Part shown: positions 2,600 through 54,944 of the stretch, one piece after another
How the letters are laid out: each line of letters starts with the position of its first letter
How positions within the stretch are numbered: position 1 is the stretch's first letter
NCBI GenBank assembly: GCA_013407085.1
Contig: JACCGJ010013225.1
Location: forward strand, 48,305 to 112,304
Direction: 5' to 3'
Length of the DNA stretch: 64,000 bases
Source: Atriophallophorus winterbourni
Lineage: Eukaryota; Platyhelminthes; Trematoda; Plagiorchiida; Microphallidae
Made by a program: the position numbers and the translations under genes
Notes under the pieces: model-generated
Seen by the model: only the letters and a program-made list of their open reading frames with translations
Databases searched by the model: none
What the model was told of the DNA's origin: nothing

Positions 2600-5070
2600 A
2601 CACAATCAAACTAACATCGGTATTTCCTACTATCACTAGGAGGAGACGGGCACTTGCTTGTGCTTATAGAAGCCCGATTGCTTCACCATTAGACGATCAA
2701 TTACTGAGGGACACATTGGAAGTACTAAAAGGGCAATACAACCCATTACTAATTGATGAAGACTTCAATCTCCCTGGAGTACCAAAATTTCTTCGCCAGA
2801 GTCAGCTGAGACGCTTAATCTGGACTGTATTCATGTTGGGGCCTTTCAGCTGCATGTCAGGGAACCTACGAGTTTTAGGTCAAGACATACTCCATTCATT
2901 TTAGATTTGGTTCTATTGAGTCATGAAAGTGATATTTATGGGATCAAATACACATCGCCACTAGACAAGAGCGACCACGTCCTAATTCTTCTTGACTTGA
3001 ATTTAGTGCACCCTAGTCACAAAGTGAAGATGTCCGACAACTTTTGTCGAATGGACATCGTCCAACTACAAACTCAAGCAATGAATCTAAGTTGGGAACC
3101 AGACAAATTGAAACCTAGTGTAGAAATCAGGTGGAATAATGTAAGAGGGCACCTTTTAAAATACAAGAATGTTTTGCTAGTCTACAACCAGGGAGAACGC
3201 GAGGAAAACCCCCCTGGTTAAGCGCGTCTATTCGCAAGGCTATTAGATGGCGTGATCGAAGCTGGAGGGCTTACAAATTCTATAGAACTCACAGATCTAT
3301 TTTGCAGTACATACATACCAGAAATACATCTGTTCCGCTGCAAAGGAAAGCTAAAAGGGATGTCGAATCCAAAGTTGCCCAAAACGCAGTGATTAACTTG
3401 AAAACGTTTCATTGCTATGTTCATTCCAAACGATCTTTAAGATAAGAAATAGTTAAGTTACTCCTGGTTGATGGCAACACGGCTTTGACTGCACAGGAAA
3501 AACCGATGCTTCGCATTCATTCTTCTGCAGTGTTTATCGGCGCGATTCAGGTGACCGATTAGAAACTCACGAGTGCAGAGTACCTCTCTTTAGCTCTGAG
3601 GAGGTTAATCAGGAAACGTTCACCACAGTTCTGTCGCAGCTGGATAAAACTAAGTCGGCTGGCCATGACGGTATGCATCCGGCTATTCTTCAACCTTGTA
3701 ATCAGCAATCTTTTTGCAGCTACCTTACTCCAGGGTATACTACCGGATGATTGGAAACGAGCGGCGGTAGTAGCTATATACAAAAAATGTCCCACTTCGG
3801 ATGTACGCAACTATAGGCCAGTAAGCCGGACTAGAATTCTTTGCAAGTGCTTAGAAAAAATCATTCGGCACCAGATATGTAAACATTTGGTAGCCAATTC
3901 CTCATTATCAGATGTCCAGAACGGATTATGGAAAGGAAGGTCGTGCCTAACCAATCTGCTAGGCTTTCTTGATGAAGTGACATTACGCATCAAGAAGGGA
4001 GAGTAGTCGAAGTATGCTATTTTGATTTTCAAAAGGCCTTTGACTCAGTGAACCATAGGTACCTTCTGCACAAACTGAGGATGTGTGGCGTCACAGATGA
4101 ACTACATCGATGGTTAGACAGCTTCTTAACTAATCGCACTAACTATGTTAGAATTGCAGGGGTGTGCTCGGAAGGATCACTGATACACATTGGAGTGCCT
4201 CAAGGCTTGGTGCTTGGTCCACTTTGATTTTTTATTTTTGTATACCACCTGGCAGCCTGCTTGAGTTCACGTTGCTTCCTGTTCGCTGATGATGTTAAGA
4301 TCCTAGGAACCGACAGTACATATACGCTTTTCTCTGGTTTAGAGTAAGTAATCGAGTGGACAAAAACATGGAACTTGCCACTTAACTTGGGGAAGAGCAG
4401 CGTTCTGACGACTGATTTACCGACAACCCAACTGGAATTTGTCGAGGGAACTATCAGAATAGCTGCTGCTCAGAAAGTAAAGGAAATCGGTATTAATATA
4501 TCAGGAGATTTTAAGTGGGCTACTCAATGCGCTGAAGCTGCAAACAAGGCTTGCAGAGAATTTTTTAGACTGTGCTCCGCGTTGTCTTAACGGAAACCTT
4601 CAATCTTCATTCCCTTACTCAATTGGAATACTGTTTTCAATCTTGGACACCGTACTTAAAAAGATATCGCATGTCTCGAAAGGGTCCACTGCCTTGCGAC
4701 TAGGATGGTTGAGGGTCAAACAGGTAAAACCTATGAGGCATGACTCAAGGACCTGGATCTGTTCTCACCAAAGGGACATCAGCTGCAAGGCGACCTAATA
4801 GAAACCTTCAAGATTCTAAAGGGTCCTATGGGTGATAATATTACTGAACTCCTCAACCTGCCCCTAAAGCAACTACAAGGGGTAATTATGTGAAACTTCT
4901 TAAGAGTAGGCCCAGGTTGCTGGCAGGTGAGCACTTTTTCAGCAACCGTGTGGTCAAATTCTGGAACAAGCTCCTAGATTGTATAGTAAACCTTCCAAAT
5001 GTTGAGCTTTAAAATGGAATGAAACGCTAAATGGCCTAACATATCTCCGCATATTGTCTAATAAAAAACT
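2600..5070 (+). pseudogene. CR1/Perere-like LINE, near full length, broken
   Basis: In order: an apurinic-type endonuclease remnant (ACAYRSPIASPLDD; LIDEDFNLPGV; KSDHVLILLDL), then RT with KSAGHDGMHP near 3655, LPDDWKRAAVVAIYKK, NYRPVS, YFDFQKAFDSVNH near 4017, GVPQGLVLGPL and FADDVKILG near 4281. A thumb and tail follow, ending FSNRVVKFWNKL near 4935. Several frameshifts and stops interrupt it, at 2902, 4003, 4225 and 4588 among others. It follows the PLE directly. A decayed copy of the same family lies at 49030-50430. Confidence 0.82.
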
Positions 5071-8447: not shown

Positions 8448-8484
8448 GTAGTCACAAATATGAAAAACAGTATAATTGATTAGA

Positions 8485-8735
8485 GTAATGTGTTGCTCAC
8501 ATCCCCCGCACTTACACTCCACTACCGGTTTCGGGCTGTTTGCAGTCATCAGGTGGATAGAGTAAGAGTAGGTTCAGTGAGCCTTGAAAAAGTGGATGTG
8601 AGCAACACATTACTTTGGTCATCCATAATGGCCTTGAGTGCTTGACCAATATTCACTTTGTGATTCTGTGTTTGAACATTGTGGTTCGTTGTACGCACCC
8701 TATGTAACAGTGGCATTCAAGTATAAATTAGTATT
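8485..8735. repeat. Retrozyme family A, head-to-head foldback copy
   Basis: Bases 8485-8592 match the plus-oriented unit seen at 9400-9510. From 8593 the same family continues in the opposite orientation. An 18-base inverted repeat (8487-8504 and 8594-8611) marks the switch. A hammerhead lies on the minus strand at 8519-8556. Confidence 0.7.
8519..8556 (-). ncRNA. Hammerhead ribozyme motif, retrozyme copy 1
   Basis: CCAC/GTGG stem I, intact CTGATGA, AAACA loop, intact CGAAA, palindromic ACCGGT as minimal stem III and GTA as cleavage triplet. Stem II keeps only its two loop-proximal pairs. Confidence 0.65.
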
Positions 8736-9271: not shown

Positions 9272-9750
9272 AAAGCGTAAGGAACAATCTTCGCCTTTGT
9301 TGCATAGGGTTCTTACAACGAACCACGATGTTCAAACACAGAATCACATAGTTATTCGTGGTCAAGCACTTAAGGCGATTATGGATGACCAAAGTGATGT
9401 GTTGCTCACATCCCCCGAGATTACACTCCACTACCGGTTTCTGGCTGTTTGCCCTATCGGGTGGAGACAGTAAGCTTAGGTTCAGTGAGCCTTGAAACAG
9501 TGGATAAACGGTAAACAAGGTAATACTTGAATGCCACTGTTGCATCGGGTTCGTACAACGAACCACGATGTTTAAACACAGAATCACATAGTGATTCGTG
9601 GTCAAGCACTCAAGGCGCTTATGGATGACCAAAGTGATGTGTTGCTCACATACCCCGAAATTACACTCCACTACCGGTTTCAGGCTGTTTGCCCTAATCG
9701 GGTGGAGACATTAAGATTAGGTTCAGTGAGCCTTGAAAAAGTGGATAAAT
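9265..9750. repeat. Retrozyme family A, tandem dimer, period 240 bp
   Basis: Two head-to-tail units: bases 9301-9500 align with 9541-9740 at an exact offset of 240 with few differences. The hammerhead region (minus strand, about 9432-9466 and 9672-9707) keeps the GAAACCGG part, but the CTGATGA core has decayed to CCGAT-type sequence in both units. The dimer sits between two LINE fragments. Confidence 0.78.
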
Positions 9751-9932
9751 GGTATTTCCGACTTGCAAGGATGACGACGGCTGTTGCTGGAATTTCGAAT
9801 GTGGAATATTTTGTCCAGGGGGTGGGAAAAACTCTTGAGATTTTTGTATGCGAGAATGTGATCACCTCAGGTTCTCCTTTATGCACGTGTGCTCAGCTAC
9901 ATTTGTCCGTGTCTTCCGGCGAATGTCGTAGT

Positions 9933-10879: not shown

Positions 10880-11560
10880 TTATAATAGCTGTCTGTGAAG
10901 ACAAAGATGATGGCATACAGCGCGTGCCTACTAAACGTTTTACTGTACGGTAGTGAAATCTGGACCACCCACACAAGGCACGAACGGAAGCTGAATGCTT
11001 TCCATCTACGAAGCATCCGTCGTATGTTGAACATATCGTGGATGGACAGAATGACTAATGCTGAAGTGCTTTCAAAAGCTGGTCTACAGAGCATGTTCAC
11101 TCTATTGCGACAGCGCCGCCTGCGCTGGCTTGGTCATGTCTATAGGATGGAAAATGGTCGTATTCCGAAAGATCTACTCTACGGTGAGCTGCAACTAGGA
11201 AGTCGACCATTGGGCAGACCGCAATTGCGGTACAAAGACGTTTACAAAAGAAATATGAAAGTTCTTGGCATTGAACCCGCGAGTTGGGAAGAACTTGCTC
11301 TTGACCGCTCACATCGGAGGCATTGTGTTAAGTGTCGTCTGCAAGCTGGGGAGGAGCAGATACAGCTCTTGACTGCTGAACGCAGATCACGCCGACGGCG
11401 TGCAACTGATGCAATACAACCGAGATCTGACTATCGTTGCTAGCGCTGTGGGAGAGATTGTTCCTCCCTAATCGAACTGTTTAGCCATTCGAAAAGCTCT
11501 AGAACATGAAAATTCAAGCAGTGATGTACATCTATGGTCGACATCGACCGAAGGAGGCCA
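10880..11560 (+). pseudogene. C2HC-tailed LINE, 3' end, copy 1 (most intact)
   Basis: The open frame 10895-11443 reads YGSEIWTTHTRHERKLNAF, LRWLGHVYRMENGRIPK, GRPQLRYKDVYKRNMKVLGI, then a TAG at 11441. After the stop the frame continues into a finger-like RCGRDC...H remnant. This is the C-terminal domain of an RTE-like LINE family with a terminal CX2CX12HX3C finger, complete in the copy at 28015-28590. The element is 5' truncated. Copies also lie at 15870, 26790, 28015, 36190, 43190 and 48130. Confidence 0.78.
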
Positions 11561-16190: not shown

Positions 16191-16630
16191 TTACATGTAC
16201 CGCAATTACAAAACACAACCAGCTTTCATTTTACTCCCAAATGAATTATAATAACCATGATCTATCTTTTATTCGCATAATTTCGGTCATTGTCTTACGT
16301 AATTATGTACTGATATTGGTGATTTGAATCACTTCATTTATTCGGGGATTTGCGAGTTTTTTTATTTCAAATCAGAGGAATATCGACCATGCTGCTCAAT
16401 GCATTCGCAAAAGATTTTGTCAAATGGTGATCTCGGAATACAATCAGCTAAATTTGCTACACATAAACGTTGCATAAAATATCAACAGCAAAGCTGGAGA
16501 ATCATCAGAAAACAAATGCATTTGAAACAATAGTAGATTTTCAATATAAAGTACTGATTTCTAACTAAGAATTTCGAGGGGTTAGTTATTACCAATGTAT
16601 TGTGGTGCTCACATCCCCATCTCTCACACA

Positions 16631-16668
16631 CCACTACCGGTTTCTGGCTGTTTGCCGTCATCAGGTGG
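16631..16668 (-). ncRNA. Hammerhead ribozyme, retrozyme dimer unit 1
   Basis: CCAC/GTGG stem I, intact CTGATGA, stem II GGC/GCC closing AAACA, intact GAAA, palindromic ACCGGT minimal stem III, GTA cleavage triplet. The pair next to the core is C-A instead of G-C. Confidence 0.75.
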
Positions 16669-16871
16669 AGACAGTAAGATCAGGTTCAGTGAGCCTTGAA
16701 ACAGTGGAAAAGCGGTAAACAAAGTTAAACTTGTATGCCACTGTTATATAGGGTTCTTACAAAAAACCACGATGTTCAAATACAGAATCACAAAGTGATT
16801 CCTGGCCAAGCGCTAGAGGCGCATGTAAAAGACCAATGTATTGTGGTGCTCACATCCTCATCCCTTAGACA

Positions 16872-16909
16872 CCACTACCGGTTTCTGGCTGTTTGCCGTC
16901 ATCAGGTGG
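16872..16909 (-). ncRNA. Hammerhead ribozyme, retrozyme dimer unit 2
   Basis: Identical in the 38-base core to unit 1, 241 bases away. Two ribozymes one unit apart would release a unit-length RNA. Confidence 0.75.
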
Positions 16910-17129
16910 AGACAGTAAGATCAGGTTAAGTGAGCCTTGAAACAGTGGAAAAGTGGTAAACAAAGTTAAACTTGTATGCCACTGTTATATAGTGTTAGTT
17001 ATTAATTTAGCTTTTTTAAAAAGACGATCACTTTGAAACCACAGAAGAGCGAAAGTAACTTTAATTTATTTTGTGATTGAAAAGTATACGATACCCCGCG
17101 TGAATAATAATAATTCCAATAGAGCTATC

Positions 17130-20200: not shown

Positions 20201-23200
20201 TTTTTGGATTGGTTTCTCTCAGAAAATAGTAAATTGAAGAACCGAATTTAAATGTTGGTTTTAAAGTAGCTTTCACTCACAGAAAATCTTAAGATTGCAC
20301 AAGTGTTTAGAATGAGTTTCGTAATCAACAGATACTGGTTCAAGAACCGGAACTGCGAAGATAAAAATCATGCTCATGTCCACATACAAGAATTAGGTTC
20401 GCTGTGAGTTGGAATGTTATCGTATAGTACATCGCCTTTTTCGTTTGCCTAGAAGAATCATTTGATAATAAAATGTAATAAAAAGCAAGTTTGCATTGAC
20501 CTTTTCAAACCGCCCGATAGTATATGCTCAACATACCTTGAAGATTCCGAAACGGGTTCCGGGAAACTGAAAACGCTATTTTCATCTTGGATTGCTGCAA
20601 AACGAGTTTAATTAAAAACATGAAACGATGTCCCACAAACAGCAATATTTTTGTTGAATGTAAATATGGAATTAATTGAAATTTAAGGGTCATTCTAATA
20701 ACATTGTCATAGTTAACACTTAGATTACTTGGAGACACATTGATCCTCTGTCATCCAAGTATTCTATGCTAGCACTGTTTTGAGATATTCCAATCACGCT
20801 TCTAATGTAAATTAACCGTGTTATTGGGATTCATTTAATAAATTAAGTGTGGTGTAATTGTAAATGATTTCTTTGTGCAACAAATAAACGAATAGGGTGT
20901 TATAATCTAGTAAAATTAAACAACCAACTCATTGAGTTATCACATTGTCATCTGTTTAAAACATAAATACGTATCCGGATTTTCAACTTTATTAGGGTTT
21001 TCACCAATAACGAATCTAAATACACACAATCATCAACAATAACGCTGCATTTCAGTATGATTATGTAAGCCACGAAAAAAATTTGATATTCAACATGCGT
21101 TTCAAAGCTTTTCCTAAAATTATTTAAAACTAAATTTGGAAAAATTAGTCTTTCGTATGAAAACATTTCAACGGGTGTTCGAGTAAATCTTGCATCAATA
21201 ATTCATCACTCTCTACATGCTGAGGGGAAAATCCGATCACAGTAAAAGACTGTAATTGTTGGAATCAATATAACATACTTTTATTCTTTTATGATCAAAT
21301 GGGTCACCGAACTTGTATGATTTTTTATTTGAGTAATGGTTCTTAGATTGTAATCCATCTGAGACGAGTGTGTTTAGAATATTTGTTGCTAATGATAGAG
21401 TATCATTGATGCTGAATTGTTCGCACTGCGTTTCCTACATTTTACGTACATGAAGTTTCCCAACGTACAAAATTGAATTGAATTGAATTGAAAGTTCATT
21501 AACGTGAGTGCATTTCACAATAGATGAGCGCATAGAATTTTTATACGGGTATATGTCTAGCATTCATTTAACTAATGCTCAAACGTCTGCCTAATAGTCT
21601 TCAAACTTTTACTGAGTAAATTGCGTATAATCAAAACAAATTTTATAAAGTGATTGTACTAAAAAGTAACTTGAAAAGCAGCTTGTATAAAAATAAAACG
21701 CCAAAAATGACCGTAATTGGGCGTTCCATTTGAAAAAAAATTACACAAGAAATGTCGGTCGTTCAAACTTAACAGCAGAGATGCTACAACTAAGTTTCAA
21801 CAGGTACAAAAATACTTAAATGATGGTAAAACTTTTTTAAGGTTGGAAGCCTTATGGAGGAAAAGAAATGGTCAAACCAATATATTCAATCATATATACT
21901 GAAAGTGCAAATTTGCATAATCTGGCTCACAAATTACATTTCCGCGCACTTTTTATTCGCGCCAAACAACCATTCAATACTATTCAATAAGCAACAGCCC
22001 GCGAACGCGTGTTAATGGGTTTCTTATTTGAATATATACCAAATTAAAGGTTGAAAATCTGACGAGATGCTTTAAATCTGATCATTTTACCCGGGCGCTT
22101 GAATCAAAATCCTCATTCAGATGCATTTCCATCCATGACCGCTTTTATTTTGTGTGCACTCATCAGGTAGGGAATATACGATCACGTTGCCTCAACTTTG
22201 TCCCTTTTAAAAATTCCGCATTAATTCATGGGTTTATTTCCGGTCGGACTACCAGAATCTTCTACAAAATTACGATAGCATTCAATATAGGAGAATATGC
22301 GTAGCTCAGGATGAGGATGTTGTTCAGATGGTATTCGCCGAGCTTGTATAGTTGTTGTTGGACGTTTCGTCATCAAGCTAGATGTCGTCTAGCAAGCTCG
22401 GCGAACACCATCTGAACGATAGCATTCAGTCCATGTTGCAAATGGATAGTTTTGGTAACACAACACCGAGCCAGCGATGCCTTTATAAATATTTTCACTA
22501 TTCCAAACCAGATTTTGTTGATTTTCAGTTATATAAATAAAGTTGTACAAAATGCACAAGTTGTTCTGAAAGAATGAATAGTAAGCAAACTGGATTTAAG
22601 CATATTAGATAAACCACAACAGATATTGCTGCAGATTCATCACATTTTACAAAAGCACATTATGACTCGAAGCGAATAAGCGAATGGAATTCAATACACT
22701 CACGCATCTTTTTCGAGAAAATCGCTGAGTCGAATCGGTCTCGGTCTGCTTTTATGCGCCTTTGTGGCGGTTTCGGTTTCACAAGTAAAGGTAGTGTCAC
22801 ATTGAGGTCCATCGTCACTTGCGTGTGATTAATTGAACGTTGAGGCTGGCAAGTTTGTCCTTGTATGATATAATCCATTCTTGCTTCAGATGTGTTATTG
22901 CTGCGTTGCCATTCACTATATAAGCAATATGTTCAAATACTTCATTTGGATTAGTTATAATTATGTTTAATAAATAATGATCGTTTAAATTACTTACAAC
23001 CACCTGTAATATTGTGTTGAACAATATGGAAACAACAGTATTGCTATATTTAGAAGTTATTTCAATATGGAATCTTTAGAGAATATATATTTTTATAATT
23101 TTTGTTGCAAACATAAATACAATTTATTATTAAAGTTTTCTTACTTTTGTGTCTGGACGCAACTACTTTGATCAGACTGATATACGTATCTCGTTTCGCT

Positions 23201-35200: not shown

Positions 35201-38200
35201 GTATAGTATTGATTTCTGTGGAGGATGTGGCCATCCGGAATAATATATATTCTAAAACCACGATGAGAGATGTCGGCGAAACAACGAATTTTGAAAACTT
35301 ATCCACAATTTTCTCGTTCGTCGCTGAGTAGAAGATTTGTACGAGGTTCATACACTGCTCCAATCCAGTTACCGTAAAACTGATTTAATTACTGTGAAGG
35401 ACGGGATTGCATTTGTAATGGACAATCAAATTAGCGATCCAGAACTGATACAATCCGCTTGGGAAAGCAAACGAAGCAAATACGAAACTCGAGAAATCAG
35501 CAAGTGTATGGCTAACATGTTACAAAATATGGGTTACATATTGGCTTGTATTAAGCTTCATCCGATTATGCTGACGTTTAACGGATTGCTTTACCAGAAG
35601 AGTTAACATGTTTTGCAGCATTGCGGTTTTAGCAGACAACCTATTTGCGATGTTGGTTTGAGCAGACTATCTGGCTAACTGAAAATTTATGATTGCTACA
35701 TGAGTGGAACTCATACATTATGAGCAGATTGATTTTATTATTTTCAACACCTGGCGTTGCACTTACATTGCATCGGTTTTGTACGCTTATCTTCTGCATG
35801 ACTGATTTCATGAAATTAATGTTAATAGATATGCCAATGGTCTAAAATGTCTCATCAAGAACATAATCTCTGACAAATACTGCGCAATTTGTTGTCTTGA
35901 TGCGGGATGTTAATGTTGCATCCGAAGGTTTTCATCTAATGGAATCCGTTTAAAAATAGTCATTGTAAAGGACGGAAATAATTTGAGTTTACTAAGTGAA
36001 CTCACATTTTGTCGTTCGGGAATCTGAATTGACTTTCCTTTTGAGCGCGCCCGGCGATTGGCTGGAATATATATAAATATAATCAAATGAAAATCCATAA
36101 ATGCCAACACACACGATTATTAAAACGATATATATCTTTGCGATAAACAGTGATTATTTATGTGGGCTCAGTTTGCATGATTAAAACAAACTACATTGTA
36201 GGGAGACTTTATCGCCTCTCATCATCACTGATTAAAACCGTCAGATTGATCCAGTACATCATTTTTCATATCTTGGTTCAACCATTGCTGATTATCTCTC
36301 GCTTGTCACGGAGATTGATAAACGGATTGTCAGAGCAGCAGGCATTTTTCCCGGCTAAACTCTCGTGTATGGAGCAACCACAAGTTGAGTGTGAAGACAA
36401 AGATGATGGTATACTGCTCCTATGTACTAAATGCTCTTTTTTACGGAGGTGAGGCCTGAACCATCCATGCAAGACACGAAAGTAATTTGAATGTATTCCA
36501 TTTACGAAGCATCCGCAGTATCTTTAACATATCATGGATGGGCAAAGAAACGAATTCTGAATTGCTTACAAAATCTGGTCTTCAGAGCATGTTCACCCAG
36601 CTACGACAGTGCCACCTACGCTGGGTGGGTTATGGTACCGAACATAAAATTGTTGTATCCCAAAAGATGTAGTCTATGTAGATTTGACATCAGGAAGTCA
36701 ACCTTTGGACAGACACCATTTGCGGTACAAATGCGTTTGCAAAAGAGAGAATAAATCGCTCTGATTTAAGCCTACAAGTTGTGATGAACTTTTTCTTGAC
36801 CGCTCACTTTAGAGGCACTGTGTAAATCATGTCCAAGATGGGGAACACCAGATACAGCTCTTGTCTCCTGACACCATCTGGGGTGCAACTAACGCCGTTA
36901 GACAGAGTATTGCTTATCGCTGTGAGCGCTGCGGGAGAGATTGTTCCTCCCGAATCGGACTGCTTAGTCATTCTAAAGGCTGCGGAGCATGAAACCATCA
37001 TGCGCTTGTGGTGTACATCCATGGTCGAAGTCAACCAAAGGAGACCAACAACAACGACAATTTATGGTGGCTATCATGAGACGAATTAGACTCACAATTC
37101 AGCCATACTCCATCATAAATCGTCAAAATCAACTATTCATCCAATATTTGTCTGAGAAAGGTATAGAGATCGAGAGCAATATAGTGTGTGATGCTTTATT
37201 AACTTATACTAAATGCTCTACAATAGAATTACAGTTAATTTAACATAACGATTTGATTTTGTCAAAATCTTATCAAACTAAACCAAATCACGTTAGACGC
37301 TACAAATTGGGGAGTTGTGTTACCTCGAGTACCTCGTTGAATTGTTTTGTCTAATTGAGGTAATTTAAGATCTTCACAACCTTGCTCGTCCTCATTTCGA
37401 GTAGACAAATTTTCCAGAATTGCCACGAAGAAGTTGATAACGGAATTTCTCACCTTTTAAAGAAATTTCATGAACTACGGTTACATGTTATAAGCTATTC
37501 AAAAGCAATGAATTATAACAAATTATTTCAAGTGGTGTGAAAATTATTTCAACTGATTACACTACAACATCCACAGTTTTATCAAATTTGCAGAATTTCT
37601 TTATCATTCCATTTTTCCAGTACACATATTATTTACTATTTTACGAAACATGTATTTATTATGAACCATTCACGAAGTTTAATACACCCGAACATTAATA
37701 GTGCCAAAAAGAACGATGAATGAATTCTGATATGGTATAATATACTCAGGGAATTAATGGTGCAAGAAGATATATCCCAAAAATCACGCATATAGAGGAA
37801 GTTGATAAAGTAATTTTGCTGTTCAGGCAGTGTTCAACGCCTAATTGTTGTTGAAAGCATCGTCATCACGATAGATGACATCATATTTTCGATGTGACTT
37901 GTAATTGAAATTCTTCGGTTTTGTAGAGTGTCCGTCTGTCGGTCAGCATCATTGCAGGATGTTCAGCGAGTTCACAATCGGTCATCGATAGCGGCCAATT
38001 GTAGTTGGTGGCAGATTGAGGTCATTGTTAAATGCTTTGCTTATGAAAATTCTATCACGCGTCAACTTTTTGGCTATTAACTTTGTGTTGTCTCAATCTG
38101 GTGACTTTGTTGATAGAGATGTATTGAGATCAATGACTTCTCGTCGTGTCTGCTTTCCACTACTGGTTTTCCTTTCTCTTATTGTTAGCGATTGGTTCGT

Positions 38201-40594
38201 CCGATGTTGTTCATTTCACAATCTCCACACGCAAGCTTTTATATGATATTCGGCCATTTTTCACAGCAAGCTTTGTCTCCAATAATGCTGAAACATTTGT
38301 GTAATGAAATTTCTGAGATAAGTTGAATACGAGGTAACGCGCGAACTGATGCTCGAATCATCGCGGATTTTGTTGTGATCAATTAAACCTTTTTTCGTCA
38401 AAGAACGCTACATATTACTTCATTTTTCTACTGAAACTTGAACAATTGTGGACCTTATTGCATTTTCGGTTCAGCGTGTTTTCTGAAGATAATCTATAGT
38501 GAACGTTTGCTTTCATTGAGCAAGTTTAGTCTGTGTATATTATATATTATTCTACTCGCACCCTTGATACAAACAGCCGCAAAGCTGGTGTGGAGTTTAA
38601 TTTCTATTCTTAAAATATGGATCATATCTCAGCAAATTTTGTAAATTTTAGTAAAAAACGGTGGCATATCCTAATTATGTAAATCCAGCGGTGACGATTT
38701 TGTATATCTGAAAAATTAATTTCTCTTTTTAAACTGGTATTTTAATGCAATTGAGTGACACTACACAACGTATTAATTTCAAATCAACTCGGAATTCGCG
38801 AAACCTGACCTGCTAGTGAGATTTCAATTCAATCAACTTCTATTGACAGGTCACGTGAAGCATTTTTTGTGATGGTCTTACCATGGGGTCATTGTTTCTC
38901 AGTGATGCAATTATGCAATTCTTTATCGCGGTCGAGTTGACCTTATCGTGTGATTTGAATCCAAGCATATTGCATAACGCATCGAATAGTAGGACCAGTC
39001 TTTGTGGGTTTTTGTTTTTACCGAACAGCATTCGAAATACCTTGCATATTGTTTCAAGGGGTAGTTTCAAAAGAATCGCAGTGATCAGGGCTCTTCTTTG
39101 TTGTGTATTGTAGTCTCCTGTGTGATCGCAATCCAGTAGACAGTTAAAAATGAACACGGCGTGTTTCTCCACAATCTTGGGTGGAACAATATCGAGTAAG
39201 CACTGTAACCAGACAGAAAATTCCGTTAAGATTTATTGATTGCATTTGGAAAATAAACAGATTTTCGCGAATTTTTATCAGATGATTTCAGGAAATAACT
39301 CATTTATGCTGTTAAGTTGTCACTCTAAACGAAATATACTATCGTTGATAAGAATGCAGTACTATGCGTGATATTATCATATGGAAAAACTAATTAATTA
39401 CAAAAGATGATACTGGTAATAATCGTAGGAGCGAACCTTTAAATATTTTGTCACATTCACCACGACGTGCTCCCTTTCATCACCCAGAAGTGGGCATAGC
39501 GTTTTTAGCAGGGCTTCAAATTCCATGGCTCTGAAATTGTAGGATTTTCCATAAGCTTTGAGCAGATAACTTCGAAAAGTATCCTGCAAGTTTTTTCCTC
39601 TCAGAGTAGCAGATATGCTTCTTTGAAAAATTTCAGGAAACGGATGCTGCCTTATCGCTGGCATGATAACTTCACCGGTTATTTCTTCCTCGGCATTTAT
39701 TTGAGTCCTAGTTTCGGTGGTAAATAAAGAAGAAACTTTTTTATTGATTCTTTCATATAAGCGGGACTTCGATTTCGGTGCTTTCACTATTTGTCTTGCT
39801 CTGACTTGATAAATTTGCAAATAGTTTTTGTTGTTGATGTTGGAGTGACCACGTTCATGAACGCATTTCGCAGCGAAGCTGCTCAATGCTCTGTAAGATG
39901 TTTGTACATTGTTCGGTAGTGTGTCAATTAAATTTTCAAACTCTTCAACATTTGTGTACGCGGTTAGGGACTGCATTATATTTGTGCATGCCATCCACAC
40001 TTCAGACTTTTCATTCATCGACGCAAAGTTGAGTAGGTTTTCAATTAATATTGCGAGATCCGCAAAATCGATATAACCATCGGACACTTCCTTGAGAACA
40101 AATTCCCAACATGCAATCCCAGGTTGATCAAAGAGTTTGCAAACAAATTTTGATTTGATTAGGCGTTTCAAGATGAACTTCAAAAGAGGACCCATATTCT
40201 TTGTGCGTTTTGCATGTACCAACAAACATTCAGCCGATTCATTCACCAAATCTTGGTTTGAGTTCCCAACAACCGTGAAAAAATTCCGTTCGATGTGTTG
40301 GATTATCTGATTTTTCCAGAATAGTGAACAATTACTTTGCAAAATCTTGCGTACAATGTTCAAAGTCATCTGTTTGTTCGGTAGGTGTGAACTGAATCCT
40401 AACACATGAGTCAATTTTTCGATAAGCGTTTTCAAATTACCCGGATCAAGGTACGAAATTGCGCAAGGATCAGCCAAATGTGTATACAAATGTTGCAGAG
40501 CACCGAAAGTATGTTGATCGTCCGATGGTATCCATGTATTTCTCAACGTCTGAATAATATGTAGATAATCCGGTGAACACTGTGAGTTGAGCAT
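17212..40594 (-). CDS. TOG-array protein, TOGARAM/crescerin-like, 10 coding exons
   Basis: Ten minus-strand exons join with matching phases into an ORF of about 1015 residues (1012 if the inner exon 3 donor is used). Exons: 40594-39437, 39202-38882, 37453-37324 (or -37333), 29067-28796, 26062-25974, 22915-22704, 20594-20537, 20081-19748, 18154-17736, 17266-17212. HEAT/TOG-like helical repeats fill roughly residues 1-235 and 345-530. A charged, low-complexity linker covers about 540-800. A C-terminal TOG domain at about 800-1010 has the helix motif LADDLTSADW and later SRMSIHALHLLGHF. TOG domains bind tubulin; TOGARAM proteins act in cilia and flagella on axonemal microtubules, which is family knowledge. 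TOGARAM1 is longer, while TOGARAM2 is near this length. CLASP-like is the main alternative. Exon 5 and 7 calls rest on splice sites and phase only. An upstream coding exon is not excluded, because no stop lies within about 130 bases 5' of the first ATG. Confidence 0.75.
17736..18154 (-). CDS. TOGARAM-like exon 9, C-terminal TOG helices
   Basis: The acceptor TTTACTTTCAG opens in phase 0 with MSRMSIHALHLLGHFLFL, then FILPPLIAKAGGDSATKF. These match TOG HEAT repeats in order (SR-x-A-x-L-LG; LP-L-KAGD-S-F). The donor is CAG|GTGAGA, phase 2. Confidence 0.78.
18485..18770 (+). repeat. Retrozyme family B copy in intron 8
   Basis: The part at 18610-18680 (AACAGTGGCATACAAG, then CACTGTTTCAAG) is shared with family A on its hammerhead strand. 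The flanks differ: here they include TTGGTCGTAACAACC and GCATGCAAATGA-type blocks that recur at 62525-62675. It carries a hammerhead on the plus strand, antisense to the host gene. Confidence 0.65.
18679..18716 (+). ncRNA. Hammerhead ribozyme motif, retrozyme family B
   Basis: Stem I CTAC/GTGG, CTGATGAG, loop AAACA, CGAAACCGG and a GTC cleavage triplet. The core is intact. The stem II outer and inner pairs remain (G-C, C-G) but the middle two are mismatched. Confidence 0.65.
18850..18905 (+). repeat. Retrozyme family B fragment
   Basis: GATGGAAATGCATGCAAATG and the following T-run repeat the post-hammerhead segment of the neighbouring copy. Confidence 0.5.
19748..20081 (-). CDS. TOGARAM-like exon 8, start of C-terminal TOG domain
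   Basis: The acceptor TTTAATTCTAG enters in phase 2 and the first codons give MAPEVVLRPRSQ. From about residue 800 the sequence LADDLTSADWTVQLNGLKNL is a textbook first TOG helix pair, with the conserved DW before the helix that packs the domain. The donor is CAG|GTAAAT, phase 0. Confidence 0.78.
20537..20594 (-). CDS. TOGARAM-like exon 7 (residues 728-746, microexon)
   Basis: A 58-base exon between TTTTGCAG and AG|GTATGT, phase 1 in and phase 2 out, both matching neighbours. It encodes PIQDENSVFSFPEPVSESS, a serine/proline-rich linker piece. The other frames of this stretch give no continuous exon-to-exon reading. Confidence 0.62.
21470..21492. repeat. TTGAA pentanucleotide run
   Basis: About four repeats of TTGAA/ATTGA, similar to tails that close CR1-type insertions here. 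No LINE coding sequence precedes it. Confidence 0.5.
22105..22200 (-). repeat. Decayed retrozyme family B hammerhead region
   Basis: Minus strand reads CCTACCTGATGAG, then degenerate stem II and GATGGAAATGCAT, in the same order as the copy at 18679-18740. Confidence 0.45.
22323..22418 (-). repeat. Long hairpin around a PLE-type hammerhead core
   Basis: Arms 22323-22347 and 22394-22418 pair at 24 of 25 positions. The 46-base loop, read on the minus strand, has CTAGACGA (CUGANGA with one inserted A), a CATC/GATG stem II and CGAAACGTC. The sequence after the ribozyme (ACAAGCTCGG) matches the start of the PLE 1 pLTR. It lies in intron 6 of the TOGARAM-like gene. Confidence 0.6.
22704..22915 (-). 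CDS. TOGARAM-like exon 6 (residues 657-727, linker)
   Basis: The acceptor TTATATAG gives phase 2 and the donor ATGC|GTGAGT at 22703 is a full consensus, phase 1. The exon encodes a proline- and basic-rich linker (VKPKPPQRRIKADRDRF) followed by SAIFSKKM. Codon use and composition are unlike the surrounding AT-rich intron. Confidence 0.68.
24420..24850 (-). pseudogene. Divergent PLE fragment with GIY-YIG motif
   Basis: Minus frame: NKASHLISRILKNLGILVAY and LLTHLRDTTLPGFAKN form the RT-endonuclease connector. NCIYKISCKSFSGVYIGQT then carries an intact GIY-YIG signature, ended by a stop. The frame resumes STRINKRIRFGKL and VETGHSVDPINVEMMRRW. It is from another PLE subfamily than the copies at 1-2580 and 46560-47480. 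It sits in intron 5. Confidence 0.72.
25974..26062 (-). CDS. TOGARAM-like exon 5 (residues 628-657, linker)
   Basis: A short acidic exon (NDYIATEEDNDGFCNTEESE) found by phase and splice sites. The acceptor ATATGCAG gives phase 0 in; the donor CAG|GTAAAA at 25973 gives phase 2 out, exactly what exons 4 and 6 require. There is no domain match; the support is the phase fit. Confidence 0.6.
26500..26810. repeat. Old retrozyme family A copy, more than one unit
   Basis: Recognisable blocks in family order: GTCGTCAGGTAGACA near 26550, ACAGAATCGCAGAGTGATT at 26620, then TGCTCACATC and CCAGTTTCTGGATGTTTGCC near 26700. Substitutions have destroyed both hammerheads. It is in intron 4. Confidence 0.55.
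26820..27690 (+). pseudogene. C2HC-tailed LINE, copy 3
   Basis: LFKYLGSTIPDNLSLDTIID and IGRATVVLSRLNSRVCGN give the post-RT region; LRSIRRIMNTSRMD follows, then a stop and decayed C-terminal sequence to the GTCGACATCGAC-type tail box. It is longer at the 5' side than copy 1. It lies in intron 4, inverted relative to copy 4. Confidence 0.75.
28015..28590 (-). pseudogene. C2HC-tailed LINE, copy 4, finger intact
   Basis: Minus frame SMENGRISEDPLYGELQLGS, GRPQLRYKDVCKRDMKALGI and SHRRHC, then YRCKRCGRDCSFRIGLLSHS followed by KSC, which gives the complete CX2CX12HX3C finger. The element ends at the GTCGACATCGAC-type box near 28030. It lies in intron 4, 200 bp downstream of exon 4. Confidence 0.78.
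28796..29067 (-). CDS. TOGARAM-like exon 4 (residues 537-627, linker)
   Basis: The acceptor is TTATTATTATTTAG with phase 1, matching exon 3. The encoded segment is polar and basic, with no HEAT pattern, as expected for the inter-TOG linker (SWLRSYSPDGTQDSEE; TKSYLAKLRKAKLYQ). The donor CAG|GTTCGC at 28795 is phase 0 and has the same six intronic bases as the exon 1 donor. The upstream 8.3-kb intron is full of retroelements. Confidence 0.66.
29068..33110. other. Intron 3, AT-rich, no gene
   Basis: No domain-bearing frame. A retrozyme family B scrap occurs at 30680-30730 (minus strand) next to a short CA run. Short frames at 30348-30545 and 31209-31614 have no support. Confidence 0.4.
30680..30730 (-). 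repeat. Retrozyme family B scrap with CA run
   Basis: Minus strand GTGTGTGTGATGGAAAT and AATGAGCTTTT match the segment after the family B hammerhead. Confidence 0.42.
33120..35610 (+). pseudogene. R2-like LINE with REL endonuclease, split by an insertion
   Basis: The N-terminal part (33122-33650) has RILSTRWTINGHTSF and REIRGSATGLDRVKPDAL, R2/NeSL-type pre-RT and RT start. RT continues at 34250 with SIDLAKTLDWVSHKPIF, GVKKGDPHSSLLF and SITFADDLLVF. The C-terminus has a zinc-knuckle remnant CGGCGHPE (about 35217) and a restriction-like endonuclease core at 35337-35606: KTDLITVKDGIAFVMDNQI then ESKRSKY. Stops and frameshifts are present. A CR1 tail (33660-34090) interrupts it. Not near rDNA. 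It lies in intron 3 on the strand opposite the gene. Confidence 0.75.
33660..34090 (+). pseudogene. CR1-like LINE 3' tail inserted in the R2-like LINE
   Basis: VPSSHINCRRHFFAVRAIFL and QHVVDSPCLAIFRAKLDLHM give the CR1 C-terminus, ending in a CTTGAATA repeat at about 34062-34082. The R2-like frame resumes afterwards. Confidence 0.72.
36190..37070 (+). pseudogene. C2HC-tailed LINE, copy 5
   Basis: FSYLGSTIADYLS-like sequence near 36260 in a broken frame, MYSIYEASAVSLTYHGWAKK (36491), ACSPSYDSATYAGW, then the finger region CERCGRDCSSRIGLLSHS-like near 36930-36970 and the tail box at 37020-37045. Multiple frameshifts. It lies in intron 3, 250 bp from exon 3. Confidence 0.7.
37324..37453 (-). 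CDS. TOGARAM-like exon 3 (residues 494-537)
   Basis: The exon starts after TTTAAAAG in phase 0 with VRNSVINFFVAILENL. Joined to the end of exon 2 this gives NDPMVRNSVINFF, a typical HEAT turn and helix, so the junction is well supported. Two donors, at 37332 and 37323, share phase 1 and would differ by three residues. Confidence 0.72.
38882..39202 (-). CDS. TOGARAM-like exon 2 (residues 387-493)
   Basis: The acceptor is a strong pyrimidine tract ending TTACAG, followed in phase 0 by CLLDIVPPKIVEKHAVF. The donor is canonical ATG|GTAAGA at 38881. Content is HEAT helices (LLFDALCNMLGF; NCIIASLRNNDPM) continuing the second TOG array. Intron 1 is only 234 bp. Confidence 0.78.
39437..40594 (-). 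CDS. TOGARAM-like exon 1 (residues 1-386)
   Basis: This is the longest open frame in the window and its first Met codon is at 40594. It is rich in amphipathic helices typical of HEAT repeats. It covers an N-terminal TOG-like array (about 1-235), a basic linker (KAPKSKSRLYERINKK) and the first helices of a second array (EALLKTLCPLLGDEREHVVV). The donor is AG|GTTCGC at 39436, phase 0. The frame runs on to a stop at 39398, but those residues do not fit the helical pattern and phase 0 matches the next acceptor. Confidence 0.78.
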
Positions 40595-40666
40595 TATTCC
40601 CGTGCAGAATACTGAGCTTCTGCAAACAACTGAACTTTCCGAATCACAAAAGTCAAGTGGTTGTAC

Positions 40667-40673
40667 TTTTATA
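40667..40673 (-). promoter_or_regulatory. TATA-like box upstream of the TOGARAM-like start
   Basis: Minus-strand TATAAAA sits 73 bases before the ATG at 40594. If used it would give a short 5' UTR. A single motif in AT-rich DNA is weak evidence. Confidence 0.35.
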
Positions 40674-41375
40674 TTGATCGATAGATTTAATCAACACAAA
40701 AACGATTTGATTAACCAATAGACGAGCGGCTACTAAGATCCGAATGCAATCCAACGGTTAAAAAAATTTTTACAAGCCCAATAGAATTTTAAGAAAAGAT
40801 AAACACTTGTTTCCAGATTCATTTTCCACGAAAACTGCATTGTATTTGAATATTAACGTTTGGTCCATTTGGGAACCATCACCTTTGCCAACGTGGTATA
40901 GAGCTATGAAGTAAACGCAACTCTTCTCAGCCATCACTTACTGATTCTATAAATGTGTATACTTTTCACTGACCTACTCAATGGGATTACTTGTCAAATG
41001 TTCTCTGCATGAGTTTGAAACACGCAATGCTTGGTTTATACAAAATTAAGCAAACTGAGGCCATTATTTCGAAACGAATCGCAGCTAGAATAACCATCTT
41101 CCAGTGTTCGTGTCAATGAGCTTAAAATAAAATGATCTTTGAATTCGATTATTCTTTGTTCGCTAAGCCTATTATTGATTTATTTTGATAAATACGCAGC
41201 GTCATATTTAAATTTTTATATAAGATTCTGTTGTGATTCATGAAATACGGGTGGGAAAAACTATTCCATCAACAGTTATTTAGATCAGTTAAAATAATTG
41301 TACGCTCGGTTGTGGTGTGGCAATAAAACAACAATTTTCTGAGCTCAATTTCATTTACAAATTTGCCTGTCAAGT
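40674..41375. other. Upstream flank of the TOGARAM-like gene
   Basis: AT-rich, no motif recognised beyond the TATA-like box noted separately. Confidence 0.35.
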
Positions 41376-41379
41376 TTTC

Positions 41380-41860
41380 ATTTTATTTTGTTGTTCACAT
41401 CCTTACCAACTTGCAAATCACAACCGGTTTGTAGCTGTTTGCTGATATCACGTTGAGACAGTAAACGCAGGTTCGGTGAGCTGTGACACAGTTGTAAAGC
41501 GATAAGCGGAGGTGTACATAAAAGCAACTGTTATATCGGGTTCGTAGAACAAAACCAAGGTGTTCGAATGCAGAATCACAAAGCGTTTAAGACACTTACA
41601 AAATTGCAAATGTCAAGTGTTGCTCACACAACCCGCACTTTCACTATACAAACAGTTTGTATCTGTTTGTCGTCATCGGGTGGAAAGAGTAAAATTAGAT
41701 CTAATGTGCCGTGTAACATTGAAAAAGTGATGAATTAAATTAGACTTTGAAGCCACCTCCGCGAACGCTCGAGAAATAATCATTTCGTGATTCTATATTT
41801 GAACACCGTGATTCGTTGTATCGGTTGTTGTGTGAACGTTTATGATGACGCTAGCAACAC
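41380..41860. repeat. Old retrozyme family A dimer
   Basis: GTTGTTCACATCC at 41391 recurs as GTTGCTCACAC near 41620. Each is followed by the CGGTTTG-TA-CTGTTTG-block of the hammerhead region and by GAGACAGTAAA or GGAAAGAGTAAA. About 230-bp spacing. Both ribozyme cores are mutated. Confidence 0.6.
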
Positions 41861-43185
41861 ATGACATTGGTAGTTTCTAAGCGTTGTGTCTTCAATAACT
41901 AACTTTTTTATCAGCCCTTTTTAGTATTTTTTTTATTTTTGCAGCTGGGCAAAACTTTTTATCGCGAAATAACGCAAACTTTGTTAAGTTGAGTAAGCAT
42001 ATATGATTTAAAAACCATTTGAATCTGTTGTTCAGTAATTTAAAAATTGAATCCGGAACGCACTAAGAAATTAGAATTTTTGACAAGTTTTCAATCTCCT
42101 TTAAAAACCTCGATTGTAGACCCTTTATAAACATTTCCTATGGGATGTAATTAAATGATGTGAACTCACTCTCAATAAATTAGTTCATAAATTACAAATG
42201 TGGATGCTTATCAGATCCTGATCAATCAAAACTCACAACTAATACAAAATTTGCTTTGTGTTAGGAAAATCCACATTAATCTAAAACTCACACCTACTTC
42301 ATTCGGTTACCCCATTATAAATGATGTTACGTTTGTAACATTTAAATCGATCCCCATTAAATGGCCATAATTATGGATTACAACTTTTGAAAAATGAACA
42401 CTCAGAATTATAGAGCCTATCTATATTAATTCATTTTCGCAATCTTTAACTTTAGAACTTACGTTATATATTCCCACTGATCACGAAATCTTAAGTAGAT
42501 GCTACGGTGAAACTATAGCCTACTTAATGCGCAACAGTAATCAGAATGGCTGTATTTTTCTCAAAACTAACACGGATAAAGAATAGCAGCTGCTATGGAT
42601 CCCATGTCAAATAATGTTTTGTTACAGTAAAGAATATCAATTTCCTTAGAAAACTAAATATTCAGCGCTCTTGACTAGTAAGCTGTATATATGGTGATAA
42701 AAAGCGGAAACATTGTTGCATGATAAATAACCGTCGATTAGTTATTTAATGAATTAAGCAAACACTAACAAATTTTTTTATATTTTACTTAGCCTCTCAA
42801 TTTTGTAACGCATATATTAGTTGGATTGATTATTCAATCAGCTGATGATGAAGTGTTTCACTATCTACGAGTGTCGGTTTCACAAGCAATGACTTACATG
42901 CAATTATAAAAATAAATAATTCTTTTCTCAATATCCGAGACATGCTGAGCAGCATTACAAATAATTACCAAAATGTTAGTACAATGAAATCAAAATTTGT
43001 ACAGTCATAAATAGAAATGAATGTCAAATTTTCAGAGGAATTATTTTATTCGGTTAAAAATCTACAGGTCAAAATATTTTGCCTCGATGGTTTTAATTTT
43101 TCCTTCTTCGTAATTACCCAGTAACTAGCCGGAATCGAAAAATCGAAATTGATACTATATTTTGTATCGCACTTACGATCTGACT
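41861..43185. other. No recognisable gene
   Basis: AT-rich; nothing identified. Confidence 0.4.
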
Positions 43186-46215: not shown

Positions 46216-46325
46216 GGTGTTATACCAGCTGGTATGGATGATTGCAGACGTTTCGTAATCAAACCAGGTGACATCATCAGCGAAACGTCTTTCGAATCAA
46301 CTTCGCGATGGACATCATTCGAATT
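46216..46325 (-). repeat. PLE 2 terminal repeat with hammerhead, sense orientation
   Basis: It lies just downstream of the PLE 2 endonuclease (minus strand). It is an inverted match to 47548-47660. It contains the hammerhead core described separately. The open frame across it on the plus strand is a by-product. Confidence 0.65.
46241..46289 (-). ncRNA. Hammerhead motif, PLE 2 downstream end
   Basis: Minus strand CTGATGA (46280-46274), T, a weak GT..AC stem, GAAAC (46254-46250) and GTC. Nine-base arms GACGTTTCG/CGAAACGTC (46247-46255, 46281-46289) can also pair with each other, a possible alternative fold. Confidence 0.5.
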
Positions 46326-47547: not shown

Positions 47548-47660
47548 ATAATGTACATTCGAATGATGTCCATCGGCAAGTTGCTTCGAAAGAAGTTACG
47601 CTGATGAGGTCTAGTTTGATAACGAAACCTCTGCAGTCAACAATACCTGCTAGGAGAACA
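47548..47660 (+). repeat. PLE 2 upstream terminal repeat, inverted, with hammerhead core
   Basis: Inverted copy of 46216-46325 placed 60 bp before RT motif A, so it replaces the missing 5' half of the ORF. CTGATGAG at 47601-47608 and GAAA at 47624-47627 form a hammerhead core antisense to the PLE. Confidence 0.6.
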
Positions 47661-53890: not shown

Positions 53891-54469
53891 TTAGTTGACC
53901 AAACCCAAGAAACGTCTGACATGACGGATGTAGCTGAGACATCGATATTGTTCGAACAGACCAAATGCTGTGGTTATGGCAGTTTTGAGAACATCGTCCT
54001 CAGCTACGGGAATTTGATGATATGTGCGCACTAAATCTAACTTCGAAAACACAGATTTTCCGTGAAGAAAGAGTGCAAAGTCATGTACGTGCGAAATAGG
54101 ATATCGAGCTGCGATCGTTACATGATTTAAAGCACGATAATCGCCACATGAACGCCAGGCATCCGTTTTGTTCTTTTCGACCATGTGGAGAGGTGTAGCC
54201 CGAGGTGAATTTAATAGGCGGATTATTCCGTGGTACATCATATGTTCGAATTCTCGTTTGGCAGCTTCAAGTTTGTTAGGTGCCAGTCTGCGTGGTTTAC
54301 TAAAAACCGGGGGTCCACGGTTTGAAATATGGTGTTTGAGGTCATGATACAGAGGGGTGTCGTGTGCACAGGATTTGAAGATATCCGAAAATTCTCTACT
54401 GAGGGAAACGTAATTCGGTGCCGTTTCTGGAATCAGGACTCGAATAGTTTGTATAGGTAACTTACACAA
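53891..54469 (-). pseudogene. Gypsy B reverse transcriptase fragment, catalytic part deleted
   Basis: [54 protein letters not shown] and [16 protein letters not shown]. It then jumps to [11 protein letters not shown], skipping the YxDD-bearing palm segment. Confidence 0.8.
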
Positions 54470-54944
54470 ATGCCGATGGCGTTAATCATTTTGACATTGT
54501 CGGTGAGTTTTCGTGTACTCACGTTGACCAAAAGATTAACATTTGAGAGGAATGTCTAAATACGCGTTAGTTTGTAAAAGTCACTACAAACTAACATTGT
54601 CTTTAAAAAAGCAACACGTGTCCTAAATCTACTCATACAGGTATTTGGGAAATTTTCGCTTAAAATATTCCCAAGGATCATGCTTCCAATGAACCACTAG
54701 GTTGAAGTTATGGGAAATGGCCAAGAAGCTCCATAGTGTAAACGGTGCCGTCTCAATGTATAAAATTACCGCTTTCGTGTCCAGACATTCACAAAAAATT
54801 GGCGCAGGTTTTACATTAGTCGCTCTTGGCAGCATTAAATTGTTTCAATCCGACTATGAAATGCTGTTGCACTGGTCATTGATGAATCGAAGTGGTATTG
54901 AAGAACGGATACCATCTGTTCACCTTTCACGTTTTTTTAATGAG

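Follow-up and report, generated by a model that had tools for sequence, protein, structure and literature searches.

The 402-bp stretch at positions 16592-16993 of the window, by which we mean the whole 64-kb stretch of DNA that was analysed, is almost certainly an insertion of an animal non-LTR retrozyme, a known kind of element of which it is by itself a real and ordinary member. What seems to be new is the manner in which copies of this retrozyme insert, and its relatives in the host genome show, in their structure, clear evidence of a Penelope type of insertion that uses preferred sites and often two ends. The original prediction had described two head-to-tail units 241 bp apart, each with a hammerhead, and self-comparison together with the relatives elsewhere in the genome returned the same arrangement. 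The RNA sense of the insertion is the minus strand, with the RNA 5' end at 16993 and the RNA 3' end at 16592, and its 1.67 units, with a period of 241, comprise a full 3' unit of 241 bp (16592-16832, minus strand), delimited by self-comparison, and a 5' partial unit that covers unit positions 81-241 (16833-16993, minus strand) and was delimited by its agreement with the 3' unit. The two units agree at 157 of 164 aligned bases, the G+C content of the 241-bp unit is 44%, and a hammerhead descriptor matched once in each. The exact 11-bp repeats that had been noted around the block were likewise recovered, as GTTAGTTATTA abuts both edges directly in the form of a target-site duplication, with its left copy at 16581-16591 and its right copy at 16994-17004, and no further exact copy was found within the 64-kb window. 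In a looser search, which tolerated up to 30 bases between the repeat and an edge, 11 bp were attained at 5 of 2,000 randomly chosen pairs of positions. This region has no repeats other than the units and the 11-mer. The reading of the block as a retrozyme thus holds, given the type I hammerhead, the tandem 241-bp units, the G+C content, the duplication and thousands of relatives. The more specific proposal of a retrotransposed RNA dimer is less secure: the two units point to one template sequence or two close ones, but the insert measures 1.67 units and its 3' end is not the ribozyme cut.

The predicted hammerhead motifs (CUGAUGA, a paired stem I and ACCGGU) are present in both units, on the minus strand. 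They were located with a descriptor and a motif table at 16864-16919 in the 5' unit (predicted cut between 16876 and 16875) and at 16623-16678 in the 3' unit (predicted cut between 16635 and 16634), the latter also coinciding in register with a sub-threshold Rfam HH9 match. Both are type I hammerheads with an intact core, made up of CUGAUGA, GAA, ACCGGU and A (A17). In stem I, the helix CCAC/GUGG is extended by a U.U and a single additional pair; beyond these lie the internal loop UGU/U and an outer helix, which reads CUUAC/GUGAG in the 3' unit and has one pair fewer in the 5' unit; stem II has 3 bp (GGC-AAACA-GCC) and a C.A mismatch at its base. The internal loop UGU/U and the loop AAACA are present as possible elements of a contact between helices I and II. 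Because the ACCGGU of stem III is self-complementary and loopless, it can pair only between two motifs, and judging from the sequence the hammerhead here should act as a dimer.

The strict type I descriptor matched exactly twice in the 64 kb, both times within 16592-16993, and 200 dinucleotide shuffles of the window gave a mean of 0.015 matches with a maximum of 1. Covariance models, which had been suggested as a check on the hammerheads, gave no Rfam match at the gathering score, and a search of 801 bases against the Rfam hammerhead families with E values up to 10 also gave none; on 101 bases the best family was Hammerhead_HH9, in the same register, with 13.2 bits (gathering 52) and E 0.71. 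Folding energy was ordinary for the units of the window (z -0.42 and -0.83), and the two copies near 9.4 kb in the window gave z values of -2.46 and -2.37. Folds of 108 nt around each motif contained stem II and stem I with a further helix GCUCAC/GUGAGC; in the minimum-energy fold, however, stem III is paired with some of the core, and an open core costs 2.5 kcal/mol. Covariation was not above that of shuffles, as the observed score was reached by 64 of 500 (by stem, by 1000 of 1000 for outer stem I, 426 of 1000 for inner stem I and 1000 of 1000 for stem II). RNAalifold did not return the hammerhead fold, and conservation of the hammerhead did not exceed that of the remainder of the unit, 96 of 241 windows along the unit scoring higher. 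The predicted 241-nt circle is 54% paired (z -0.56), with 57 of 200 shuffles equally stable. Covariation, fold energy and conservation thus lend no support, and the case for the ribozyme is carried by its motif and by the rarity of that motif by chance.

A 34-base core pattern had 4,706 exact matches in the host assembly (537,331,230 bp in 15,840 contigs) and its reversed control had 0; the core scan of viral and prokaryote contigs also gave 0 matches. The copies that we analyzed, 30 loci from each of two genome searches and 17 further stretches, were drawn from the 40 top-scoring candidates per search and are therefore a sample biased towards well-preserved copies. Across 85 motifs from 23 loci, the core was intact in 66 and the base of stem II was U.U in 63 and C.A in 17, or one of the two in 80 of the 85, so the stem II mismatch is a feature of the family; among the core-pattern matches listed, C.A at this position was the commoner. 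Within the window, nhmmer (E up to 1) detected 16 stretches, 16592-16993 included, and the strict descriptor passed no window copy except that one. Older copies of the window include a tandem copy of subfamily B with a period of 240 (9292-9754, minus strand; blastn and nhmmer), a head-to-head copy at 8472-8732 (nhmmer and end mapping) and a tandem copy with an inverted arm at 41384-41883 (nhmmer). Retrozyme arrays of about 7-11 units were observed at L003, L010, L023 and L028, some of them at contig ends. In some arrays, variants were common to different loci (L004, L012, L023, L028), and the variants that the L023 and L028 arrays share with other loci suggest that satellites may also arise from the retrozyme. 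A sub-threshold match to the twister-P1 ribozyme was also noted in L018 (361-415, minus strand; 41.6 bits, gathering 67.2, E 9.4e-6).

For the mapping of insertion ends, units were numbered in the RNA sense from the base after CAUUGG, with the predicted cut after position 198. Ends were mapped in the window and in 68 fetched loci, 69 sequences in all; matches under 80% identity were dropped, and deduplication by 14-nt flanks reduced the 3' ends from 105 to 98 and the 5' ends from 102 to 87. The 98 non-redundant RNA 3' ends fell at two preferred sites, 60 at S1 (unit positions 231-241) and 20 at S2 (103-119), with 18 elsewhere, the bounds of both sites having been chosen after the ends had been seen; near the predicted cut (193-204) there was 1 of the 98. 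S1 is an 11-nt site that lies 43 nt downstream of the predicted cut and corresponds to 16592-16602 (minus strand), at the RNA 3' end of this insertion, and S2, about 117 nt from S1, corresponds to 16714-16730 (minus strand) and is internal here. The 87 non-redundant RNA 5' ends were scattered, with 5 within 193-204 against 4.3 expected. The clustering of 3' ends away from the ribozyme cut and the scatter of 5' ends indicate that copying begins at favored points and terminates at dispersed positions, and we infer that S1 is the start of reverse transcription. The unit positions adjoining S1 are the least conserved of the unit, so alignments may tend to stop at S1; where a duplication abuts, as at 16592-16993, the RNA end is exact. 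This set of 98 ends replaced a clustering observed in the window only (5 of 12 ends within 7 nt, P 0.0017).

Of 53 insertions, 16592-16993 included, 18 lie between exact duplications of 10-16 bp, against 1 of 2,756 cross-locus controls, and an earlier subset had given 7 of 18 against 0 of 306 controls. A count of duplications at other copies, of the kind that the original prediction had proposed, supports the retrozyme reading, with 17 of the 52 other insertions examined so flanked. The set of 53 excludes contig-edge clusters (L004, L009, L010, L023, L028, L032, L035), same-site repeats (L006, L016, L017, L020, L022, L027, L030, L042, L043, L059, L069), the window copies in L048 and complex or array copies (L055, L057, L066, L073, L075), and second clusters within a locus were left uncounted. 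Target-primed insertion from preferred sites is, on these data, very probable.

Head-to-head arms were recognized by eye in 18 loci, and in these copies both outer ends are RNA 3' ends. Half of them (9 of 18) combine S1 with S2 (102-119) as outer ends, namely L008, L013, L021, L024, L031, L033, L051, L074 and the window copy at 8472-8732, whose left outer end lies at unit position 236, near S1, and whose right outer end lies at 106-114, near S2. The remaining combinations were S1 with S1 (L041, L064), S2 with S2 (L070) and S1 with another point (L015, L040, L063, L068, L072 at 860-1091, L076). Duplications of 10-14 bp were found in 8 of the 18 loci (L008, L015, L021, L024, L031, L033, L040, L074). 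This set excludes L029 1259-1444, the diverged window copy at 41384-41883, the complex L073 and L075 and the tail-to-tail L067 and L069. The head-to-head copies are most simply explained by priming at both ends of the break.

A similar architecture was observed in Penelope-like elements of this genome. The right part of one such element occupies positions 1-2578 of the window (plus strand), with its reverse transcriptase recognized by homologues, and its left part lies outside the window (L078 4621-6005), the whole element being L078 4621-8583. Its GIY-YIG part was recognized by eye and had no match in Pfam. The element belongs to the type proposed here as mover of the retrozyme. A 14-bp duplication flanks the element, with 12 bases of play allowed at each edge; its left arm is inverted with respect to its own 3' part, to which it is 97.5% identical, and its outer ends lie 37 nt apart on the RNA. 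Its pseudo-LTR carries a hammerhead-like motif with a cut, predicted by eye, 47 and 84 nt before these ends, so that the distance from cut to first end is 47 nt in this element and 43 nt, from cut to S1, in the retrozyme. The octamer ACAAUACU occurs both at S1 of the subfamily of 16592-16993 and at the second end of the Penelope-like element; subfamily B copies of the window carry ACAUCACU or ACAUUACU in its place, and little weight is therefore given to the shared octamer. Many Penelope-like copies were detected in the genome (the best 150 of 3,869 candidates), and several have open frames of 800 or more codons. A type I hammerhead-like motif was present in all 10 of the pseudo-LTR stretches fetched (L079-L088), two of which are near-identical, and 8 of the 10 have ACGU as stem III. 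No reverse-transcriptase or GIY-YIG frame adjoins 16592-16993.

Several other features were recorded along the way in these sequences. Fragments 63-94% identical to the pseudo-LTR region of a second Penelope-like family lie at 22283-22384, 46216-46296, 47578-47660 and 37845-38151 of the window, and four contigs of the genome (C10209, C13126, C6359 and C2474 of G000) hold head-to-tail arrays of Penelope-like elements with a spacing of about 2.53 kb and long open frames. LINE-like and other reverse-transcriptase frames are located at 10889-11443, 3563-4006 and 53891-54481 of the window, with sub-cut-off Pfam RVT_1 matches at the last two. Additionally, several open frames on the minus strand between 17732 and 40690 resemble exons of one host gene, which may be TOG/CLASP-like; five of these frames had no match in Pfam, and a protein search with the frame 39398-40690 returned none.

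Three loci that join the two families (C3511, C8281 and C3925) were considered as Penelope-retrozyme chimeras produced by template jumping, and are read instead as Penelope-like insertions nested in retrozymes. In C3925 (L092), a 13-bp duplication, CTAATCTTACTGT, flanks a Penelope-like element inside the retrozyme, where it sits just 5' of the hammerhead; this locus is repetitive, and a match of at least 10 bp also arises in 14 of 300 random placements. In C8281 (L091), an 11-bp duplication surrounds the retrozyme, with the Penelope-like element within. The reading of C3511 (L086/L089/L090) was made by eye only: an antisense retrozyme resumes after the Penelope-like element, and no clear duplication was found, the inner edges sharing 5 bp and the outer edges 8 bp, a length attained by 36 of 2,000 random pairs. 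The nested loci show that both families meet, not that one enzyme copies both.

The sequences of the units themselves bear on the template. Relative to the family majority, six changes are common to both units of 16592-16993, and the units differ from each other at seven sites, which points to one template sequence or two close ones, whether in a circle or in a multimer. At each of the seven sites, one allele occurs in 0-2 of 22 other loci; in a wider set, both alleles were found in at least 3 other loci at three of the seven, and the template may thus still have been slightly mixed. The location of four of the seven differences in the strand of outer stem I (P 0.02) had been considered as a sign of a heterogeneous template and is weakened by the rarity of the alleles (0-2 of 22 loci). 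Among 14 insertions of the subfamily of 16592-16993 with duplications of 10 bp or more, the units were 0-1.2% apart in five (L005, L007, L021, L024, L047), against 4.0-7.3% between loci, and these near-identical units fit one template copied repeatedly. The arms of L021 differ by 1.6% and those of L024 by 2.1%. In the other nine (L001, L008, L015, L031, L033, L034, L039, L040, L046) the units were 3.3-10.2% apart, in several cases as different as units of different loci, a divergence that reflects either age or mixed templates.

Taken as a whole, we consider it probable that the element is a non-autonomous retrozyme with dimeric hammerhead cutting and Penelope-like, target-primed insertion at S1/S2. 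Paired (dimeric) type I hammerheads would cleave the transcripts of tandem units to give RNAs of 241 nt, and these RNAs may then be circularized. A putative Penelope-like reverse transcriptase/endonuclease encoded elsewhere in the genome would make a staggered break, and copying of the RNA would presumably start at the preferred internal S1 or S2, sometimes from both broken ends. As the copies show, it continues beyond one unit length, leaving partial tandems such as 16592-16993, and ends at scattered points. By analogy, a Penelope-like enzyme is likely to move the retrozyme, the link being one of parallel structure without shown co-transposition. A circular template is an evenly balanced proposition. 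Tentatively, and with more against it than for it at present, a broader idea may be put forward, in which animal retrozymes are trans-mobilized: Penelope-like proteins would bind the small RNA circle made by the hammerhead, cut both chromosome strands and prime both ends on it at two favored sites separated by about half its length, with one circle templating both arms. The start-site signal, at a Penelope-like distance from the hammerhead, would be all that the retrozyme keeps and the means by which it hijacks the enzyme.

The closest competitor concerns the template, which could be a linear multimeric transcript that is never circular, with ribozyme cutting dispensable for insertion. We give this slightly under an even chance, as the predicted cut shows no enrichment of 3' or of 5' ends, the units are heterogeneous in 9 of the 14 duplication-flanked insertions and RNAs with inactivated hammerheads were inserted like active ones in vitro, according to PMC11167929. 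The five young-looking insertions with units 0-1.2% apart speak against it, although a homogeneous multimer would give the same result, as do the close arms in two of them (L021 and L024) and the abundant retrozyme circles described for other animal species (PMC7229834). A different mover, namely a LINE acting on a SINE or satellite with the hammerhead as a passenger, is unlikely. LINEs also give 11-bp duplications, 5' truncation and 5' inversions, and LINE-like reverse-transcriptase frames are present in the window and long arrays in the genome (L003, L010, L023); LINE-like 15-bp duplications are also described around Nematostella repeats (PMC4918200). The Penelope-like pattern is nevertheless a better match for the two preferred 3' ends, which in head-to-head copies often occupy opposite outer ends. 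No tRNA gene was found in the 64-kb window, and the Pol III boxes of the unit in the RNA sense matched weakly, the best B box having 2 mismatches and the A box 1 in a comparison made without a control.

It is very unlikely that the repeat represents a pseudo-LTR, solo or in tandem, of a Penelope-like element and not a separate retrozyme family. The short hammerhead-like motifs of the Penelope-like pseudo-LTRs (10 of 10 fetched) and the similar insertion layout would agree with it, but blastn (E 0.1) matched the 241-bp unit nowhere in the 9.9 kb surrounding the nearest Penelope-like element, L051 is the only one among L001-L077 that matches three Penelope-like queries at E 1e-3, and stem I of the retrozyme, by reading, is longer than that of the pseudo-LTR motifs and has an internal loop. 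That an old satellite underwent segmental duplication or unequal crossing-over, with the flanking 11-mer present by chance, is highly improbable: the variants that some long arrays share between loci (L004, L012, L023, L028) are of the kind that such events would produce, but the copies are dispersed, the 11-mer is exact at both edges and duplications of at least 10 bp flank other insertions far beyond the cross-locus controls. A non-autonomous retrozyme inserted in the Penelope manner remains the preferred reading.

In comparison with known systems, the element resembles the metazoan non-LTR retrozymes in its type I hammerhead, in tandem units within the range of about 170-400 bp, in low G+C, in duplications of more than 4 bp and in thousands of copies, as these are described by Cervera and de la Pena (2020; PMC7229834). 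The U.U form of its stem II base recalls the axolotl HHR_Amex2, which has a U.U mismatch at that position and works best as a dimer (PMC7229834). It differs from those retrozymes in its stem III, a loopless self-complementary hexamer, and in the prevalence of U.U or C.A at the base of stem II. Retrozyme RNA is expected to be strongly self-paired, above 70% (PMC4918200), a trait that is typical of metazoan non-LTR retrozymes and not strictly defining, and of which the circle predicted here falls short. By description, the dispersed and tandem repeats with type I hammerheads are also like the SMalpha and W elements of Schistosoma, some of whose hammerheads have been shown to cleave (PMC8490949). 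The present element differs in the lack of a tRNA in the window and of a convincing Pol III promoter.

Penelope-like elements have been named as likely candidate movers of animal retrozymes (PMC7229834, PMC7761336). The accessible text of PMC7229834 describes no S1/S2-like ends or two-ended arms among metazoan retrozymes, and Penelope-style retrozyme insertion was unreported in the literature titles and abstract openings that were searched, subscription papers lying mostly outside that search. The two preferred 3' ends, the two-ended arms and the duplications across dozens of copies turn the guess of a Penelope-like mover into a testable proposition, and the same genome also holds similarly laid-out Penelope-like elements with long open frames. 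The retrozyme differs from Penelope-like elements in having no coding frame and in not matching the sequence of the element at the edge of the window, and its S1-S2 distance contrasts with the 37 nt of that element and with the published tails of 30-40 bp, which are related to the stretch between the two start sites (PMC11167929). Purified Penelope-like protein extended both strands and used two internal start sites, the Anolis element being cut at +26 and having starts at +111 to +118 (PMC11167929), and inverted pseudo-LTR arms, an optional one-sided tail of 31 bp and duplications of 8-10 bp have been described for these elements (PMC3846280). Duplications of about 8-14 bp are common to Penelope-like elements and the retrozyme, which, like Poseidon PAc/Adineta Penelope, also exhibits a hammerhead upstream of the putative starts, two preferred sites, probable extension on both strands and head-to-head arms (PMC11167929, PMC3846280).
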